Assembly: GCA_026394095.1 (NCBI GenBank)
Contig: JAPKYY010000938.1
Coordinates: forward strand, 1 to 12,418
Length of the DNA stretch: 12,418 bases
DNA from: Acidobacteriota bacterium
GTDB taxonomy: Bacteria; Acidobacteriota; Terriglobia; Bryobacterales; Bryobacteraceae
Direction of reading: 5' to 3'
Both the position numbers and the translations under genes were made by a program. Position 1 is the first letter of the stretch; each line of letters starts with the position of its first letter. Positions 6,486 to 12,418 of this stretch are shown piece after piece. The notes under the pieces were generated by a model. The model was not told the origin of the DNA, did no database searches, and saw only the letters and a list, made by a program, of their open reading frames with translations.

Positions 6486-7148
6486 ATGAAGCCGTGCAGA
6501 TTTTGTGTTTTGCTTCTTCTCTTGTCTGGCGTCGGGGCCTTTGCCGAGGAACCGGGCGTGGATGTGATTCCGTCTGGGACGGTGTTGCAGATCCGGTTGC
6601 GGCAGACGGTTTCGTCGTATGTAACCAAGCCGGGGACCGCGGTTCTGGCCGAGGTGATTGCTCCGGTTGAGGTGAATGGACGGACGTTGTTGCCGTTTCG
6701 GACTGAGCTGATTGGGTACGTGAAAGAGGCCCGGCGGGTGGGGCTGGGTTTCTCCCGGGAGACGGCGCTGTTGCATCTGGAATTTGACCGGATCCAGTTT
6801 CCAGGCAAGGCAGAGCGGCCGATTGCAGGAATGGTGAGCCGGCTGGATGATGCGCGTGAGAGAGTGGACGGGCAAGGGCGGATTCGGGGGATTCGCGCGA
6901 CCGATTCTTTTTCTTCGATGCTGGCAGGGTTTGCGGTGTCGGCCGGCGCATTTGATCCGATGGCATTGATCTTTTCTCTCTCGTCGTCACTGAGTGTGTT
7001 TCGCTTGCCGGACTCGTCTGTTGTTTTACCGGCCGGGACGGAGTTGCGGTTTCGCGTGGGCGCGGATTTGAGAGTGGAAGAGGTGTTTTGGGAAGCGTAT
7101 CCGGCTCTTGGTGGCGGCAATCGAGCGGAACTGGAATTTGTGGTGTAG
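6486..7148 (+). CDS. N-terminal part of a split LssY_C / outer-membrane beta-barrel protein: signal peptide plus TrbI-like domain
   Basis: The 220-residue product ends at an in-frame TAG. Residues 1-19 (MKPCRFCVLLLLLSGVGAFA) are a signal peptide. Residues about 25-215 resemble the TrbI/VirB10-like secreted domain: IPSGTVLQIRLRQTVSS, AVLAEVIAPVEVNGRTLLP, then VVLPAGTELRFRV near the end. The same frame stays open after the stop: codons 7149-7208 read ELPFRTATKTDGTPSDLTSL, a plausible beginning for the LssY_C domain, and the frame continues to 8801. The two parts are therefore best read as one ancestral gene of about 771 codons broken by a nonsense codon. ATG 6486 has GGAG ten bases upstream. 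On its own this piece would be a small secreted domain without the LssY_C and barrel parts. Confidence 0.75.
   Translation: MKPCRFCVLLLLLSGVGAFAEEPGVDVIPSGTVLQIRLRQTVSSYVTKPGTAVLAEVIAPVEVNGRTLLPFRTELIGYVKEARRVGLGFSRETALLHLEFDRIQFPGKAERPIAGMVSRLDDARERVDGQGRIRGIRATDSFSSMLAGFAVSAGAFDPMALIFSLSSSLSVFRLPDSSVVLPAGTELRFRVGADLRVEEVFWEAYPALGGGNRAELEFVV
7146..7148 (+). other. In-frame amber codon splitting one gene
   Basis: TAG lies between GTG GTG and GAG CTT CCG. The frame is open from 6486 to 7145 and again from 7149 to 8801, with related domains on both sides. TAG is also the ordinary terminator of six other or final gene ends here (1377-2582, 2502-3236, 3283-4248, 6486-8801, 9154-9531 and 10248-12418), so general reassignment of TAG is unlikely. 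One C-to-T change from CAG would be enough to explain it. Confidence 0.8.
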
Positions 7149-8801
7149 GAGCTTCCGTTTCGTACCGCGACGAAGACTGATGGGACGCCTTCGGATCTGA
7201 CGAGCCTGATGTATCTGGGTTCGCAGGAAGCTATTGAGCGGGCCTTTGAGGCGGCGGGGTGGGTGAGGTCTGACCGGCTGGACGGTAAGTCGTCGTATGG
7301 GGTGATGCGATCGATTGTTGAGAATCAGGGTTACAAGACGGCACCCATGTCGGTGCTGACGCTGAATGGCAAGGAGCCGGAACTGGCGTTTGCCAAGACG
7401 TTGAATACGTTTTTTTCGCGGCATCATTTGCGGATTTATTCGCAGCCCAAGATGGTGGATGGCAAGGCGGTATGGACCTCGACGGCGACCTATGATTCGG
7501 GGATTGGTTTCTCGAAAGGGGCCAAGACGTTTATCCACCTCATCAACGAGAACATCGATGAGGAGCGCAGCAAGGTGATGAATGATCTGCTGCTGACGGG
7601 ATGCGTGGATGGAGTGGGGTACGTAGAGCGACCGTGGGTGCCGCGGGATGCGAAGAACTCGACAGGGGATACGTTGCGGACCGATGGCAGGATTGCGGTA
7701 GTGCGACTGAATGACTGTGTGAAGCCGGCACGAGCGGATGAAGAGGATGTGATGCGCTCGAATCTCAAGCTGCGGCAATCGGCTTATGTGCGGCCGCTGC
7801 GATCGACGATTCTGACGCTACGTAATGATCTGCTGCGCGGCAATTTGGCGTATCAGGCGTTTCATGGATTCAAGATGGCCAAAGAGGTGTTGGGGAAGCC
7901 AAAGGTTGTTGATGCTGCCGAGCCGAAGAGTTTTCGCTATGGCGGGCAGGAGTTTCTGATTGTAGATGGTGCCAAGCCCGTGGTGCATCGGGACGTGCCG
8001 AAGGATGCGGGACACAAAGTGAAAATGCGCGGCGAGGAGACGGCGGTGAAGAGTTATTCGAGCAAGCTGTCGTTCAGTTTGAGCGGGGGACTCACGGGAT
8101 TTGGGGGTTCGACGCTGACGACGCTGCCGACGACGGTGGTAGTGAGCTCGGGTGGGCAGGCGATCCGGGACCCGCTGCGTTTTGATTCGACGCTGGAGCG
8201 GGGTTGGACACTGTCGCCGAAGATCACGATGAATACTTGGAAGTATGTTTCGAACGAATTCGCGTATACGCGGAGCCAGACAAATTTCAGGCTGGTGGGT
8301 AAGGATGATGTTACGGGGATGGGGATTGATTCACGGTCGAAGGCGGCGGTGCGGACGTTTACTTACAACACGGTGGTGCATTTGACGCCGAACGGCAGGA
8401 GGGTAAGGCCGTATGTGGCGGCTGGGCCGGCGGTGCAGTTGATTCATTTGCTCGATGCCAAGCCGGAGAGGAATGGGTTGCTGAAGTTTGCGGCGCGGGA
8501 TGTAGCGTTGTTTGTGACGGCATATAACTTTGGATCGAAGCCGGCGCTGGATGGTGGGGGAGTGTTTCAGTTTGGATTGAACTATGGGGGCGGCGTGAAG
8601 TTGCATTTGACGCCGAGGCTGTTTATGCGGGTGGACTTTCGCGAGACTGTGACTCGCAAGCCGGACTTTTGGAAGTCGCTGCCACAGAGGCTGAAGGAGT
8701 CGACGGACACCGAAACGCTGAAGCTCGAGTATGGGCCAGTGGTGCGCGGTGGTGCGCTGCGGCATCAAGTGGTGACGATGGGGATTGGGGTGGCGTTTTA
8801 G
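7149..8801 (+). CDS. C-terminal part of the split protein: LssY_C domain plus outer-membrane beta-barrel
   Basis: The frame is open from 7149; the first ATG is at 7209, giving 530 residues if translation restarts there. Residues up to about 170 of that product form an LssY_C domain: YLGSQEAIERAFEAAGW, then APMSVLTLNGKEPELAFAKT, FFSRHHLRIYSQPK, FIHLINENIDEERSKVM. From about residue 270 the sequence turns into alternating polar and aromatic strands with the pattern of an outer-membrane beta-barrel (SFSLSGGLTGFGG; FAYTRSQTNFRLVG; RVRPYVAAGPAVQL; LFMRVDFRETVTRK). It ends in GIGVAF with a terminal Phe, the usual signal for barrel insertion. The signal peptide lies upstream of the amber codon, so a product restarted at 7209 would not be exported. 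No good ribosome-binding site precedes ATG 7209. Function of LssY_C is unknown; a role at the cell envelope is inferred. Confidence 0.78.
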   Translation, partial: ELPFRTATKTDGTPSDLTSLMYLGSQEAIERAFEAAGWVRSDRLDGKSSYGVMRSIVENQGYKTAPMSVLTLNGKEPELAFAKTLNTFFSRHHLRIYSQPKMVDGKAVWTSTATYDSGIGFSKGAKTFIHLINENIDEERSKVMNDLLLTGCVDGVGYVERPWVPRDAKNSTGDTLRTDGRIAVVRLNDCVKPARADEEDVMRSNLKLRQSAYVRPLRSTILTLRNDLLRGNLAYQAFHGFKMAKEVLGKPKVVDAAEPKSFRYGGQEFLIVDGAKPVVHRDVPKDAGHKVKMRGEETAVKSYSSKLSFSLSGGLTGFGGSTLTTLPTTVVVSSGGQAIRDPLRFDSTLERGWTLSPKITMNTWKYVSNEFAYTRSQTNFRLVGKDDVTGMGIDSRSKAAVRTFTYNTVVHLTPNGRRVRPYVAAGPAVQLIHLLDAKPERNGLLKFAARDVALFVTAYNFGSKPALDGGGVFQFGLNYGGGVKLHLTPRLFMRVDFRETVTRKPDFWKSLPQRLKESTDTETLKLEYGPVVRGGALRHQVVTMGIGVAF

Positions 8802-8848
8802 GTTTTTTGGTCTTGTTGCTTGCGAGTGTATGCGCTGAGGATAGTGGT

Positions 8849-8879
8849 GGAGGTGTACTTTCTATGAAATACACTGTAC
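8849..8879 (+). promoter_or_regulatory. Antitoxin leader: ribosome-binding site and possible autoregulatory operator
   Basis: GGAGG at 8849-8853 lies ten bases before ATG 8864 and decides that start over the in-frame ATGs at 8882 and 8888. TGTAC occurs at 8854-8858 and again at 8875-8879, 21 bases apart, about two helical turns. GTGTA (8853-8857) and TACAC (8870-8874) are also inverted repeats. TGTAC-type repeats over the start suit Phd/YefM-style autoregulation. Confidence 0.4.
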
Positions 8880-9157
8880 GTATGGCGATGCAAGCAACCG
8901 AGTTGCGGAAGAAATTGTTTCAGGTTCTGGAAGAAGTGTCTCAAGGGGCGACTGTGGATATTACATACAAAGGGGCTTCGTTGAAGATCGTACCTGCGGA
9001 GCGGAGTTCGCGGCTGGGCCGGTTGGTTGAGCGGGATCTTGGGCTGGAGATTGGGCCGCGGGATTCGGGTTGGACTGCGGAGGCAATTGCGGAGTGGGAG
9101 GCAGAGATGAACCAGTTTTATGGCGGCCCCAAAAGGAAGGATAAGAGCGGATTGTGA
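8864..9157 (+). CDS. Phd/YefM-type antitoxin
   Basis: A 97-residue protein that should bind and neutralise the PIN toxin encoded directly after it and repress the operon. Residues about 8-47 have the Phd/YefM DNA-binding fold pattern: MQATELRKKLFQVLEEVSQG, then ATVDITYKGASLKIVPAE, with the usual Ala-Thr-Glu-Leu-Arg helix start and a strand-turn-strand carrying YKG. Residues about 66-97 (DSGWTAEAIAEWEAEMNQFY) are a likely toxin-binding helix with a basic tail. The stop overlaps the toxin start (GTGA at 9154-9157), so translation is coupled. A longer frame reaching back to 8669 overlaps the previous gene and lacks family similarity, so ATG 8864 is preferred. Confidence 0.87.
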   Translation: MKYTVRMAMQATELRKKLFQVLEEVSQGATVDITYKGASLKIVPAERSSRLGRLVERDLGLEIGPRDSGWTAEAIAEWEAEMNQFYGGPKRKDKSGL

Positions 9158-9531
9158 GTCTGACTTACCTCGATACTCATGTCGTGGTCTGGCTGTATGA
9201 AGGGCGTATGAAGCGGCTGAGTCAGGAGGCGCGCAGAAGTATTGAGCGTGCTGATACGCTGCTTGTGTCGCCGATGGTGGAATTGGAACTCAACTATCTG
9301 TTTCGCAGAGGACGGGTAAGTTCTTCGGACGTGCTCAGGGATCTGGCCGGACGGATCGGACTTGGGGTTTGCGATCTTCCCTTTTCTGCGGTGACGAACG
9401 AGGCATTGCAGATCGGATGGACCGAGGATGTATTTGACCGGATTATTGTGGCGCAGGCGATGGTTCGCAATTCGAAGCTGGTGAGTGCGGATGAGGTGAT
9501 TCTGGAGAAGTATTCTCAGGCGGTCTGGTAG
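9154..9531 (+). CDS. vapC: VapC-type PIN-domain toxin (ribonuclease)
   Basis: A 125-residue PIN-domain protein, the usual VapC length. The acidic Mg2+ site is complete: Asp7 in YLDTHVVVWL, Glu44 in SPMVELELNYL, Asp95 in EDVFDRIIVAQA and Asp113 in LVSADEVI. Relatives are endoribonucleases that cut RNA (often tRNA or rRNA) when freed from the antitoxin. The GTG start (9154) lies inside the antitoxin stop region with a four-base overlap. Pairing with a Phd-like rather than AbrB-like antitoxin is common for this PIN subgroup. The stop codon lies in the loop of a hairpin (9515-9545) separating it from a second, converging TA module. Nothing suggests inactivation. Confidence 0.9.
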   Translation: MSLTYLDTHVVVWLYEGRMKRLSQEARRSIERADTLLVSPMVELELNYLFRRGRVSSSDVLRDLAGRIGLGVCDLPFSAVTNEALQIGWTEDVFDRIIVAQAMVRNSKLVSADEVILEKYSQAVW

Positions 9532-9545
9532 AGACCGGGGCTGAG
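9515..9545. terminator. Terminator-like hairpin shared by two converging TA operons
   Basis: Outer arms CTCAG (9515-9519) and CTGAG (9541-9545) and inner arms CGGTCT (9521-9526) and AGACCG (9532-9537) pair perfectly around loop GGTAG, with a small asymmetric internal loop (G opposite GGG). The loop contains the vapC stop codon (9529-9531), and the other module ends at 9548. No T-tract follows on either strand, so an intrinsic terminator is possible but weak. Confidence 0.5.
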
Positions 9546-9547
9546 TC

Positions 9548-9769
9548 TTAGGTGCCGAAATGCTTGTCGAGTTTGGCTAGTATCTTTAGACCCTTTTCTG
9601 GGGAACCGTGCTGGGCGCGCATGCGAAAACGCAGTTCGGCGTCGTGTTGAGCGAGGGCAATTGTGGCGAGTTCATCCAGCAGGTGGTTCATGCTGACGCC
9701 CTTGGCAGACGCCAACTGCCGCAAACGGGCATGTTTTTCGTCTGCGAGTCGAAGAGTAAGAGTGCTCAT
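9548..9769 (-). CDS. Ribbon-helix-helix (CopG-like) antitoxin
   Basis: A 73-residue protein with an N-terminal ribbon-helix-helix: strand MSTLTLRLADEKHARLRQLA, then a second helix in GVSMNHLLDELATIALAQHD. The C-terminal part (about 45-73, with KGLKILAKLDKHFGT) is the likely toxin-binding tail. RHH antitoxins of PIN toxins repress their own operon as dimers. GGAGG lies nine bases upstream of ATG 9769-9767, inside the end of the toxin gene, and the start overlaps the toxin stop by four bases (ATGA read on the minus strand), so the genes are coupled. The gene comes second, after its toxin, the reverse of the usual vapBC order. An upstream extension to 9868 is rejected because it overlaps the toxin and ignores this ribosome-binding site. 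Confidence 0.83.
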   Translation of the reverse strand: MSTLTLRLADEKHARLRQLASAKGVSMNHLLDELATIALAQHDAELRFRMRAQHGSPEKGLKILAKLDKHFGT

Positions 9770-10191
9770 TGAAGTTCCTCCATTAGTTCGTCGGGACTGA
9801 GAATGCGGATTCCTGGAAAGCGCAGTTCTGACCTGTTGAGGTGACGGTGATTGTGGGTTACGATGCAATCCGCCGCGCCGGCGACGGCGAGCTCGATCAG
9901 GTGGTTATCGCCTTCATCTGGCAGATTTGGACGCCACGAATAGTAAATTTTTACCCATTCGCCGACCGAAAGCAATGATTCCAAGAGATCTGTTCTTTCC
10001 GTTGCCGAGACTGGACATCTCTCAAAGAGTTTCGCGCGACTGAGGACATCTTCATATTCAGCAAAAAGAGCCTGCCCCACGATTGGGCGGATACGGTGCT
10101 GGAGGCATGCTATTAGAACGCGGCGGTTTGAGCCGACGTTGGAAAGCATTGCGCCCGTTAACACGTTGGTATCAATCACAGCCCTGATCAT
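9766..10191 (-). CDS. PIN_3 / COG1569-type PIN-domain toxin
   Basis: A 141-residue putative ribonuclease toxin of a PIN group different from the one at 9154-9531. It opens with MIRAVIDTNVLTGAML (Asp7), then Glu45 in LFAEYEDVLSRAK, the acidic cluster PDEGDNHLIELA (91-102) and ADCIVTHNHRHL (107-118), where Asn takes the last acidic position as in some members of this group. The order toxin then RHH antitoxin, with a four-base overlap, marks it as the first gene of a TA pair. ATG 10191-10189 fits the family start; ATG 10224-10222, eleven codons upstream, is in frame and possible. The kinase-propeller gene ends 56 bases upstream on the same strand, and a palindrome and possible extended -10 lie between, so the module probably has its own promoter. 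Confidence 0.85.
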   Translation of the reverse strand: MIRAVIDTNVLTGAMLSNVGSNRRVLIACLQHRIRPIVGQALFAEYEDVLSRAKLFERCPVSATERTDLLESLLSVGEWVKIYYSWRPNLPDEGDNHLIELAVAGAADCIVTHNHRHLNRSELRFPGIRILSPDELMEELQ

Positions 10192-10201
10192 GCCTCGCCA
10201 A

Positions 10202-10219
10202 AATGATAGCACTGGTGCT
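10202..10219 (-). promoter_or_regulatory. Palindrome overlapping a possible extended -10 promoter for the PIN_3/RHH module
   Basis: AGCAC (10208-10212) and GTGCT (10215-10219) are perfect inverted arms with a two-base spacer, 16 bases before the toxin ATG. Read on the minus strand, the right arm runs into TGCTATCAT, an extended -10-like box (TATCAT at 10207-10202). A repressor on the palindrome would cover this box. The implied start site lies only a few bases before ATG 10191, giving a very short leader. This is pattern reading only. Confidence 0.35.
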
Positions 10220-10227
10220 GTCATTCG

Positions 10228-10242
10228 CTGCCGCTCTGGCAG
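10228..10242 (-). terminator. Short hairpin after the kinase gene, weak terminator candidate
   Basis: CTGCC (10228-10232) and GGCAG (10238-10242) can pair around a five-base loop, starting six bases past the kinase stop codon. The stem is short and no T-tract follows, so termination here is uncertain; readthrough into the TA module is possible. Confidence 0.25.
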
Positions 10243-10247
10243 ACTCG

Positions 10248-12418
10248 CTACTTGGGGAGGAGGGTGGTCCAGTCGGTGAGGACCTGGGCATTGAGAGCTT
10301 CCGTCTGATCGGTTTCCAGAAGGAGGAGGCGCTTGCCGTCGCGAGAAGCTGCGCCCGACGTTGCACCGACTCTTGTTGAAGTCATCCAGGGCCGGAGGAG
10401 CTTTGGTGCTCCGAGCCGGCGGTCCTGAGAGAGTGGGAAGGCGAGAAGGTTTCTGTTGGAGTGCGCATAAAGTGTGCCGCCGTCCGCACTGAAAAAGGGC
10501 AGGGTAATCTGATCTGCGTTTTGCTTGTAGCGATTCGGGGGGGCAGACGTCGGAGGGTAGGCTTGCACGGCAAGTCCACCTTCTCTGGACATGCCCCAAG
10601 CCAAGGAACGGCCATCGAGGGAGAGAGTGGCAAAGCCAAGACCTTGCGTTAGGAGTTCAAGCTCTCTGGGTGACGGCGCCTGGAGATCCAGGCGCCTTAG
10701 CGAACCTGTTGCCGTTTGAACCAGCAAGTAGCGGCCCTCGGGTGTAAGGCCTGCGAGTACGGTGGTCGATGTGCCAAATCCCGAAGCCGCTTTCCAGAGC
10801 AATTCTGGCTGGGTCGCATTGTCGAGGAAGTGGCGCTTGATCTCTGGTCCGCCCGCAGCGGAGGAAACATAGAAGACGGATTTGCCATCGCGCGCCCAGA
10901 GCGGGTAGGATTCCTGGTCTGACGAATTGGAGATGCGGCTGCCTACACCTGTTTTGCTGTCCAGGATCCAGACATGGGAATCCGGATCATCGATTTGAGC
11001 GGCGATTTTGGATTCGTCAGGGGATAGAGCGAAAGAAACGAAGCTGCGGTTTTCGCTCACCCTGGCAAGCAGATTGCCATTGGGATCGACCCAATTGAGG
11101 TGCCAAATGGGCAGAGTTCCGGAGATGTGGGTCCACGACAGCACTCCGCCGCCACCAACTGAAAATCGCGACCAAAACCTTGGAGGTGGAATTGTGGAAA
11201 CTCCTTGAATCAACTTGGCGGGAGTGGATAGGAGGTTGCCGGATTTGGGGTCGATCTGCGCGGTGAGCAAGATACGGCTACTCCGTAGTTCGCGCTCACC
11301 GGCAAGGTAGAAGATATGCCATTTGCCTGTGGTTGGATTCCTGGCAAATTGAACCATCCGATGAGTAAGGATCGACGGATCAATGGTTGAAGAATTGAGA
11401 GAAGCCCGGAAGAGGCGCATGCCGTCTTCACTCTGCTGAAGAAATACAAAGCCATCACCCTCTGGCAGGAAGATCGGTTCTGCGGGTGGCGAGTTTGATT
11501 TGAATTCGATGGGGAGGTCCTTTATGGTTGCGGAGCGCAAATCATAGGTTTTGAGCTTGCCGTGCGAGGCAAGCAAGATGGTGCCATCGCTCACGCCACC
11601 CCGCCACGAGGCACCCAGGAAATCCTTAACCTCCATCAAGTCTCGCGAAGGGGAGCCGTCCAGACGAATCACACGCAAGCGATTGGCCGAGACGAAGCCG
11701 ATCGCAGTGGAGTCCTCTGACCAGAAGGCGAAAAGACTCTCGCCCCCGGTTCCTGAAAGAGTCCTCCAATTGGGGCTGTCGAGGCGCCGCACCTGGCTCT
11801 CACTATCTCCCAGCTTCAGAAGCCACTTGCCATCCGGACTGAGCACGATAAACGATCCAGGGGCCCCTGAGATATTGAAGTGGCTGGCGGGTTTATCGGA
11901 TGGGGTGACTCGCGGCCACAGAAGAGCTGCGACGAATGCCAGGAGGAAGGTGGCGGCGAGCGCGATCCAGAGGGTGGGGCGGGTTGCCGGCTTTGCTTGT
12001 TCTTTTTGTTGGGGGTTGGCGAGGTAATCCTCGATGGCGATGCGGGCTTCGCCGATGTCCTTGTATCGGTGCTTGAAGTTGCGATCGAGGCAGCGGGCGA
12101 GGAGAGCTTGGATGGCCGGTGGGGCTTGGGGGATTGCGAAGTCGATGGGGTCTTTGAGGACCGAAGCGAGGGTGTGGGAGACGGTTTCGCCGTGGAAGAG
12201 TTTCTTGCCTGTCAAGAGTTCATGGAGGACTACGCCGAAGGCCCAGATGTCGGCTCGCTTGTCGACGGTTTTGCCGGCGGCTTGCTCTGGGGACATGTAG
12301 CCGGCGGTGCCCATGATGAGGCCGGCGGAGGTGGCGGCGAGGGTAAGCGTTGGGGAGTTGTTGGGATCGTGGTTGGCGGGTTGGGCGACGGAGGCGATGC
12401 CGAAATCGAGGACCTTGA
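10248..12418 (-). CDS. Ser/Thr protein kinase with transmembrane segment and periplasmic PD40 beta-propeller, 5' end outside window
   Basis: The last 722 codons are visible; the nucleotide-binding lobe and catalytic HRD loop lie beyond the window. The first visible residues are KVLDFGIA, with the Mg2+-binding DFG at 4-6. The activation segment MGTAGYMSPEQAAG and subdomain IX/X sequences (DIWAFGVVLHELLTGKKLF) follow, then RCLDRNFKHRYKDIGEARIA. One transmembrane helix (about residues 148-167, LWIALAATFLLAFVAALLW) connects to about 555 exported residues with PD40/TolB-like repeats: VLSPDGKWLL, ALSPDESKIAAQ, WARDGKSVFYV, SLDGRSLAW, SRDGKRLLLLE. The architecture is typical of Acidobacteriota: a cytoplasmic Hanks-type kinase coupled to an external sensor propeller. 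The ligand is unknown. The stop is TAG at 10250-10248. An internal ATG at 12314 is not the real start because conserved kinase sequence continues upstream to the window edge. Confidence 0.92.
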   Translation of the reverse strand, partial: KVLDFGIASVAQPANHDPNNSPTLTLAATSAGLIMGTAGYMSPEQAAGKTVDKRADIWAFGVVLHELLTGKKLFHGETVSHTLASVLKDPIDFAIPQAPPAIQALLARCLDRNFKHRYKDIGEARIAIEDYLANPQQKEQAKPATRPTLWIALAATFLLAFVAALLWPRVTPSDKPASHFNISGAPGSFIVLSPDGKWLLKLGDSESQVRRLDSPNWRTLSGTGGESLFAFWSEDSTAIGFVSANRLRVIRLDGSPSRDLMEVKDFLGASWRGGVSDGTILLASHGKLKTYDLRSATIKDLPIEFKSNSPPAEPIFLPEGDGFVFLQQSEDGMRLFRASLNSSTIDPSILTHRMVQFARNPTTGKWHIFYLAGERELRSSRILLTAQIDPKSGNLLSTPAKLIQGVSTIPPPRFWSRFSVGGGGVLSWTHISGTLPIWHLNWVDPNGNLLARVSENRSFVSFALSPDESKIAAQIDDPDSHVWILDSKTGVGSRISNSSDQESYPLWARDGKSVFYVSSAAGGPEIKRHFLDNATQPELLWKAASGFGTSTTVLAGLTPEGRYLLVQTATGSLRRLDLQAPSPRELELLTQGLGFATLSLDGRSLAWGMSREGGLAVQAYPPTSAPPNRYKQNADQITLPFFSADGGTLYAHSNRNLLAFPLSQDRRLGAPKLLRPWMTSTRVGATSGAASRDGKRLLLLETDQTEALNAQVLTDWTTLLPK

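Follow-up and report, generated by a model that had tools for sequence, protein, structure and literature searches.

According to Belinky et al. (2021, PMC7918605), most in-frame stop codons are short-lived and persist for times comparable to those of polymorphisms within populations. On the protein side, the closest counterparts of the gene dealt with in this work are proteins in which an LssY_C domain (PF14067) is followed by a C-terminal barrel (PF13505). Searches of the literature rendered nothing on the LssY_C domain or on pseudogenes in Bryobacteraceae, and the matches listed for LssY were unrelated by title. The whole stretch of DNA analysed, referred to below as the window, is contig C818 (12,418 nt) of the draft MAG G000 (Acidobacteriota, Bryobacteraceae), which comprises 5.05 Mb in 1077 contigs and is 88.9% complete. 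It carries a gene for a probably exported protein whose reading frame is divided by a single TAG codon, and the reading that we favour, with a probability of about 0.73, is that this nonsense codon was gained very recently in the lineage and is either fixed or segregating among strains.

The divided frame and its surroundings

Re-translation confirmed what an earlier note on this DNA had described, namely one plus-strand frame, 6486-8801, which from the ATG at 6486 (with GGAG upstream of it) is interrupted only by the TAG at 7146-7148, both 6486-7145 and 7149-8801 being open. The part preceding the stop encodes 220 residues and starts with a stretch that resembles a signal peptide by eye. The part that follows it encodes 550 residues (7149-8798) and is closed by a terminal TAG at 8799-8801. 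Downstream of the stop, PF14067 matched with 156 bits (cut-off 25) from residue 7 onwards (about 7167-7691), and the same domain was detected at E <= 0.01 in 44 of 44 aligned relatives. The PF13505 beta-barrel match was weaker (20.2 bits, under the cut-off of 28.7), yet 38 of the 44 relatives match this family at E <= 0.01, and on this basis the C-terminal end of the window protein is graded as a probable outer-membrane barrel. No solved structure was similar by sequence at E <= 1. The earlier note had placed the signal peptide before the stop and the LssY_C domain and the barrel after it; this division holds for the signal-peptide-like start and for LssY_C, but the part preceding the stop also contains a conserved domain of ca. 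195 residues, which in relatives lies in the same frame as LssY_C and which gave a weak TrbI-like match (18.5 bits against a cut-off of 35). Weakly similar N-terminal domains, mostly at about 25-35% identity, are also found in shorter frames of many relatives.

The first in-frame start codon after the TAG, when ATG, GTG and TTG are all allowed, is the ATG at 7209, which opens the longest frame starting downstream of the stop (7209-8801, plus strand, 530 residues). This ATG lies inside the LssY_C match, so that a protein starting there would lose the beginning of the domain, as the earlier note had anticipated; neither that beginning nor an N-terminal export-signal-like stretch is present in the 530-residue frame, and no clear ribosome-binding site was seen by eye at the ATG.

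The region that separates the gene from the next frame on the minus strand (8805-10248) is occupied by two frames for PIN-domain proteins, 9154-9531 and 9766-10599, which together with their short neighbouring frames, for which no Pfam match was obtained, are perhaps toxin-antitoxin pairs. In G001, a genome of the same genus, hardly any sequence lies between the matches to the two flanks (one ending at 9526, the other beginning at 9535), and in G007, another genus mate, only parts of the 8805-10248 insert are present. The next-door frame itself (10249-12358, minus strand), protein-kinase-like by eye, is 95.8% identical to its counterpart in G007 with a dS of 0.093, as compared with 0.304 for the LssY_C gene; the apparent ages of divergence of the two genes therefore differ, perhaps through recombination.

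The stop position and the linker in relatives

At the DNA level, 105 loci matched at E <= 1e-25, from a collection that was later extended to 148. After merging repeats of one stretch and leaving out nine loci that did not cover the position, 63 distinct stretches remained, and the stop was present in the window alone, the other 62 all having a sense codon. Their identities lie between 92% and 29%, and paralogues as well as barrel-less LssY_C proteins are among them, so that the count tests the position and not the orthologues alone; in the distant rows the codon facing the stop depends on the alignment, which is visibly shifted in one of them (L049). Opposite the TAG, the two nearest orthologues, those of G007 and G001, have lysine, and a single base separates the window codon from the one in the nearest relative. 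The G007 protein is 94% identical over the 550 residues after the stop, its first part being cut by a contig edge, while G001 matches the same piece in two parts, 84% and 78% identical. No independent copy from the same species was found, since the best listed protein covering the whole query is 72% identical and the sole 100% match is the window's own; nor was a second near-identical copy found in G000, where the nearest sequence is a 37% identical paralogue with an open frame (C746).

The piece downstream of the stop was matched at E <= 0.001 in 45 of 61 genomes. A wider family scan with the same query rendered matches at E <= 1e-80 in 21 of 237 genomes (26 rows), among which only the second piece of G001 contained an internal stop. 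Of the eight genomes in the genus, G000, G001 and G007 were those in which the gene was observed. A protein search scored 7995 candidates and yielded 429 proteins at E <= 1e-20; the best 120 of these were placed in one alignment together with the window and its paralogue, the G007 sequence and the first piece of G001. In the 123 rows of this 124-row alignment other than the window, the position of the stop is occupied by arginine (61), lysine (26), histidine (12), glutamate (10), glutamine (6), alanine (3), glycine (2) or a gap (3).

Of these best 120 homologues, 116 run across the boundary, each with at least 54 residues before the position. The continuous frame is therefore more than chance, being one protein in the relatives. 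Homologues occurring as two separate proteins with exactly this boundary, the outcome that the earlier note had named as contrary to its proposal, were not found among these 120, and a natural pair of proteins was rejected as an explanation. The remaining four start past the position (P0027, P0102 and P0109) or two residues before it (P0119), P0102 starting at the same methionine as the 530-residue frame of the window. P0119 has 558 residues, and the longest contig on which it lies is of 1.8 Mb. It had no match of near-full identity in sets of 396 and 398 genomes, and its six matches at E <= 1e-200 (60-72% identical) are all single frames of 791-889 residues; P0119 may thus be part of a split gene or the result of a wrong start call.

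Other copies close to that of the window look broken as well. In G001 a frameshift lies between LssY_C and the barrel, at about 8727-8732 of L064, a lesion different from that of the window, which fits a gene that can be lost. The resulting frame of 508 residues ends exactly like P0043 (505 residues, no mismatch), and since P0043 stands for four member sequences on three contigs, which may share one sample, the frameshift is probably not a single assembly slip. Fragments resembling the LssY_C piece of G001 were not found in the protein database at E <= 1e-90 among 760 candidates. A further copy, the metagenomic P0124 (173 residues, on two contigs, the longest of 48 kb), resembles the N-terminal part of G001, to which its two pieces are 94% and 96% identical. 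An internal stretch present in G001 is missing from it, and its last residue falls within the linker, 14 residues short of the stop position, at what may be the end of the contig. Thus, three of the four closest copies (window, G007, G001 and P0124) look broken in three different ways, a pattern suggesting that these bacteria can lose the gene and that it may be dispensable to them. The next 16 homologues (P0003-P0018, 61-72% identical) are proteins of 723-786 residues.

Constraint, termination and the origin of the stop

Comparison of the window with G007 downstream of the stop gave a dS of 0.304, a dN of 0.034 and a dN/dS of 0.113, the latter being 0.073 for codons 1-188 (LssY_C), 0.177 for codons 189-300 and 0.090 for codons 301-550 (barrel) after the stop. 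Upstream of it, dN/dS was 0.257 over the 56 residues shared with G007 and 0.133 for the whole piece against G001. With G001 as the outgroup, and leaving out sites at which G001 differs from both, the 283 codons of the LssY_C part gave 25 synonymous and 11 nonsynonymous changes for the window branch, and the 265 codons of the barrel part gave 23 and 3; the corresponding counts for the G007 branch were 17 and 11, and 13 and 7. The summed ratios, 48:14 for the window and 30:18 for G007 (Fisher P 0.096), indicate that constraint on the window branch is, if anything, the stronger of the two, although the G007 frame is open. Under neutrality 72% of the changes are expected to be nonsynonymous, and 14 or fewer out of 62 has a binomial P of 1.5e-15. 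Even with a baseline of zero, the unconstrained share of the window branch is at most 19% (one-sided 95%), and when the G007 ratio serves as the baseline every share is rejected at the 5% level, zero included, because the ratio of the window is lower than that of G007. Since constraint is not relaxed after the stop, as these 48 synonymous and 14 nonsynonymous changes show, the lesion is named here a recent nonsense mutation and not an established pseudogene. Intact constraint implies that the stop appeared late on the branch, or is not fixed, or is not real. Judged from the sequences compared, it is specific to the lineage of the window, be it young, a strain polymorphism or a consensus error. 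Constraint by itself, nevertheless, cannot separate a late, unfixed or unreal stop from functional readthrough.

The lack of decay downstream, a pattern that functional readthrough would also give, was accordingly counted against the nonsense reading, and so was the state of G000, which is only 88.9% complete in 1077 contigs and in which RF1 was not found. Low-level readthrough of the TAG, producing a small but useful quantity of the full-length protein, would agree with the strong purifying selection downstream and with the absence of RF1 from the assembly, and Belinky et al. (2021, PMC7918605) argue that such cases are common in bacteria, if mostly short-lived. RF1 is present above the cut-off, however, in seven of seven genus mates, so that its absence from G000, an 88.9% complete MAG, most likely reflects missing sequence, and a true loss of RF1 is the less likely cause. 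The best match to the RF1 profile in G000 (262.6 bits, cut-off 423.25) is a protein that we take, from its frame, to be RF2. No tRNA with a CUA anticodon was detected among the 29 tRNAs found; those for His, Trp, Tyr, Cys and Ile are missing too, which makes the set incomplete and the test weak. TAG ends six of the 12 other frames listed in the window, one of them being the gene's own downstream frame, so it acts there as an ordinary stop, and a changed genetic code, which the earlier note had called unlikely, was rejected. Moreover, a recoding signal that is kept should be common to the relatives, whereas all 62 other stretches lack the stop; constraint does exist on both sides of it, but the stop itself is not conserved (one of 63 stretches). 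The earlier note had left two readings side by side. The recent nonsense mutation is backed by the sense codons of the relatives, the one-base difference and the downstream constraint, while no positive evidence was obtained for readthrough that would yield a small amount of the complete protein alongside a short secreted domain, a reading that we regard as highly improbable.

It can also be the case that the stop is an error of assembly or base calling and that the true genome has a sense codon and a whole gene. A single codon, a fragmented MAG and undisturbed constraint downstream are what such an error would leave, and many pseudogenes with internal stops in assemblies are artefacts, according to Cooley and Wright (2024, PMC11017572). 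Against this, the alignment of the window with G007 contains no gap opening in 2110 bases and, in another 1828 bases, a single one (three bases, in frame); indel errors are thus not seen there, although this says little on substitutions. We consider an error unlikely, but it is the alternative to which we give most weight. That the short product is itself the functional state, an exported N-terminal domain selected without LssY_C and barrel, is very doubtful. The weakly similar N-terminal domains in shorter frames of many relatives would be consistent with it, and P0124 also ends in the linker, 14 residues before the position; the lack of an internal stretch in P0124, however, is what decay would produce, and the protein may end where its contig ends. 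Constraint downstream is not relaxed in the window, and relatives as a rule have the fused form (116 of 120 listed homologues). We give similarly little credence to the idea that recurrent breaks within the linker or beyond it (the window stop, P0124 and the G001 frameshift) serve these Bryobacteraceae as a reversible mutational off-switch of a surface-exposed barrel.

In all likelihood, then, the window holds a gene broken a short time ago, or else a variant among strains or an erroneous base, rather than a novel mode of protein synthesis. If the nonsense codon is real, ribosomes would end at 7146-7148 as at the other TAG codons of the genome, the 220-residue N-terminal piece, without LssY_C or barrel, would be made or degraded, and no useful amount of the downstream part would be produced.

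Comparison with described stops and proteins

The case is an ordinary one, covered by the accounts of short-lived stops and of assembly artefacts, with nothing new to either. Its reach beyond the gene itself is small, but it illustrates cleanly what a young nonsense change looks like in a draft genome, and it warns against taking an in-frame stop for recoding. If repeated loss were confirmed, the protein could be considered, speculatively, as a candidate surface trait subject to selection among strains, for instance by phages.

With the stops treated by Belinky et al. (2021, PMC7918605), that of the window shares being single, recent and surrounded by sequence with a dN/dS well below 1; their main set consists of stops present in two or more species, whereas that of the window is present in one genome. 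With the spurious internal-stop pseudogenes of Cooley and Wright (2024, PMC11017572) it shares a single internal stop in a draft assembly. As for the protein, the LssY_C plus barrel relatives, 16 of which are among the 120 listed homologues at 61-72% identity and with 723-786 residues, have the same domain order and a comparable length to the window protein, which extends over ca. 770 positions when its stop is counted; the window copy differs from them in having a stop between the N-terminal domain and LssY_C.
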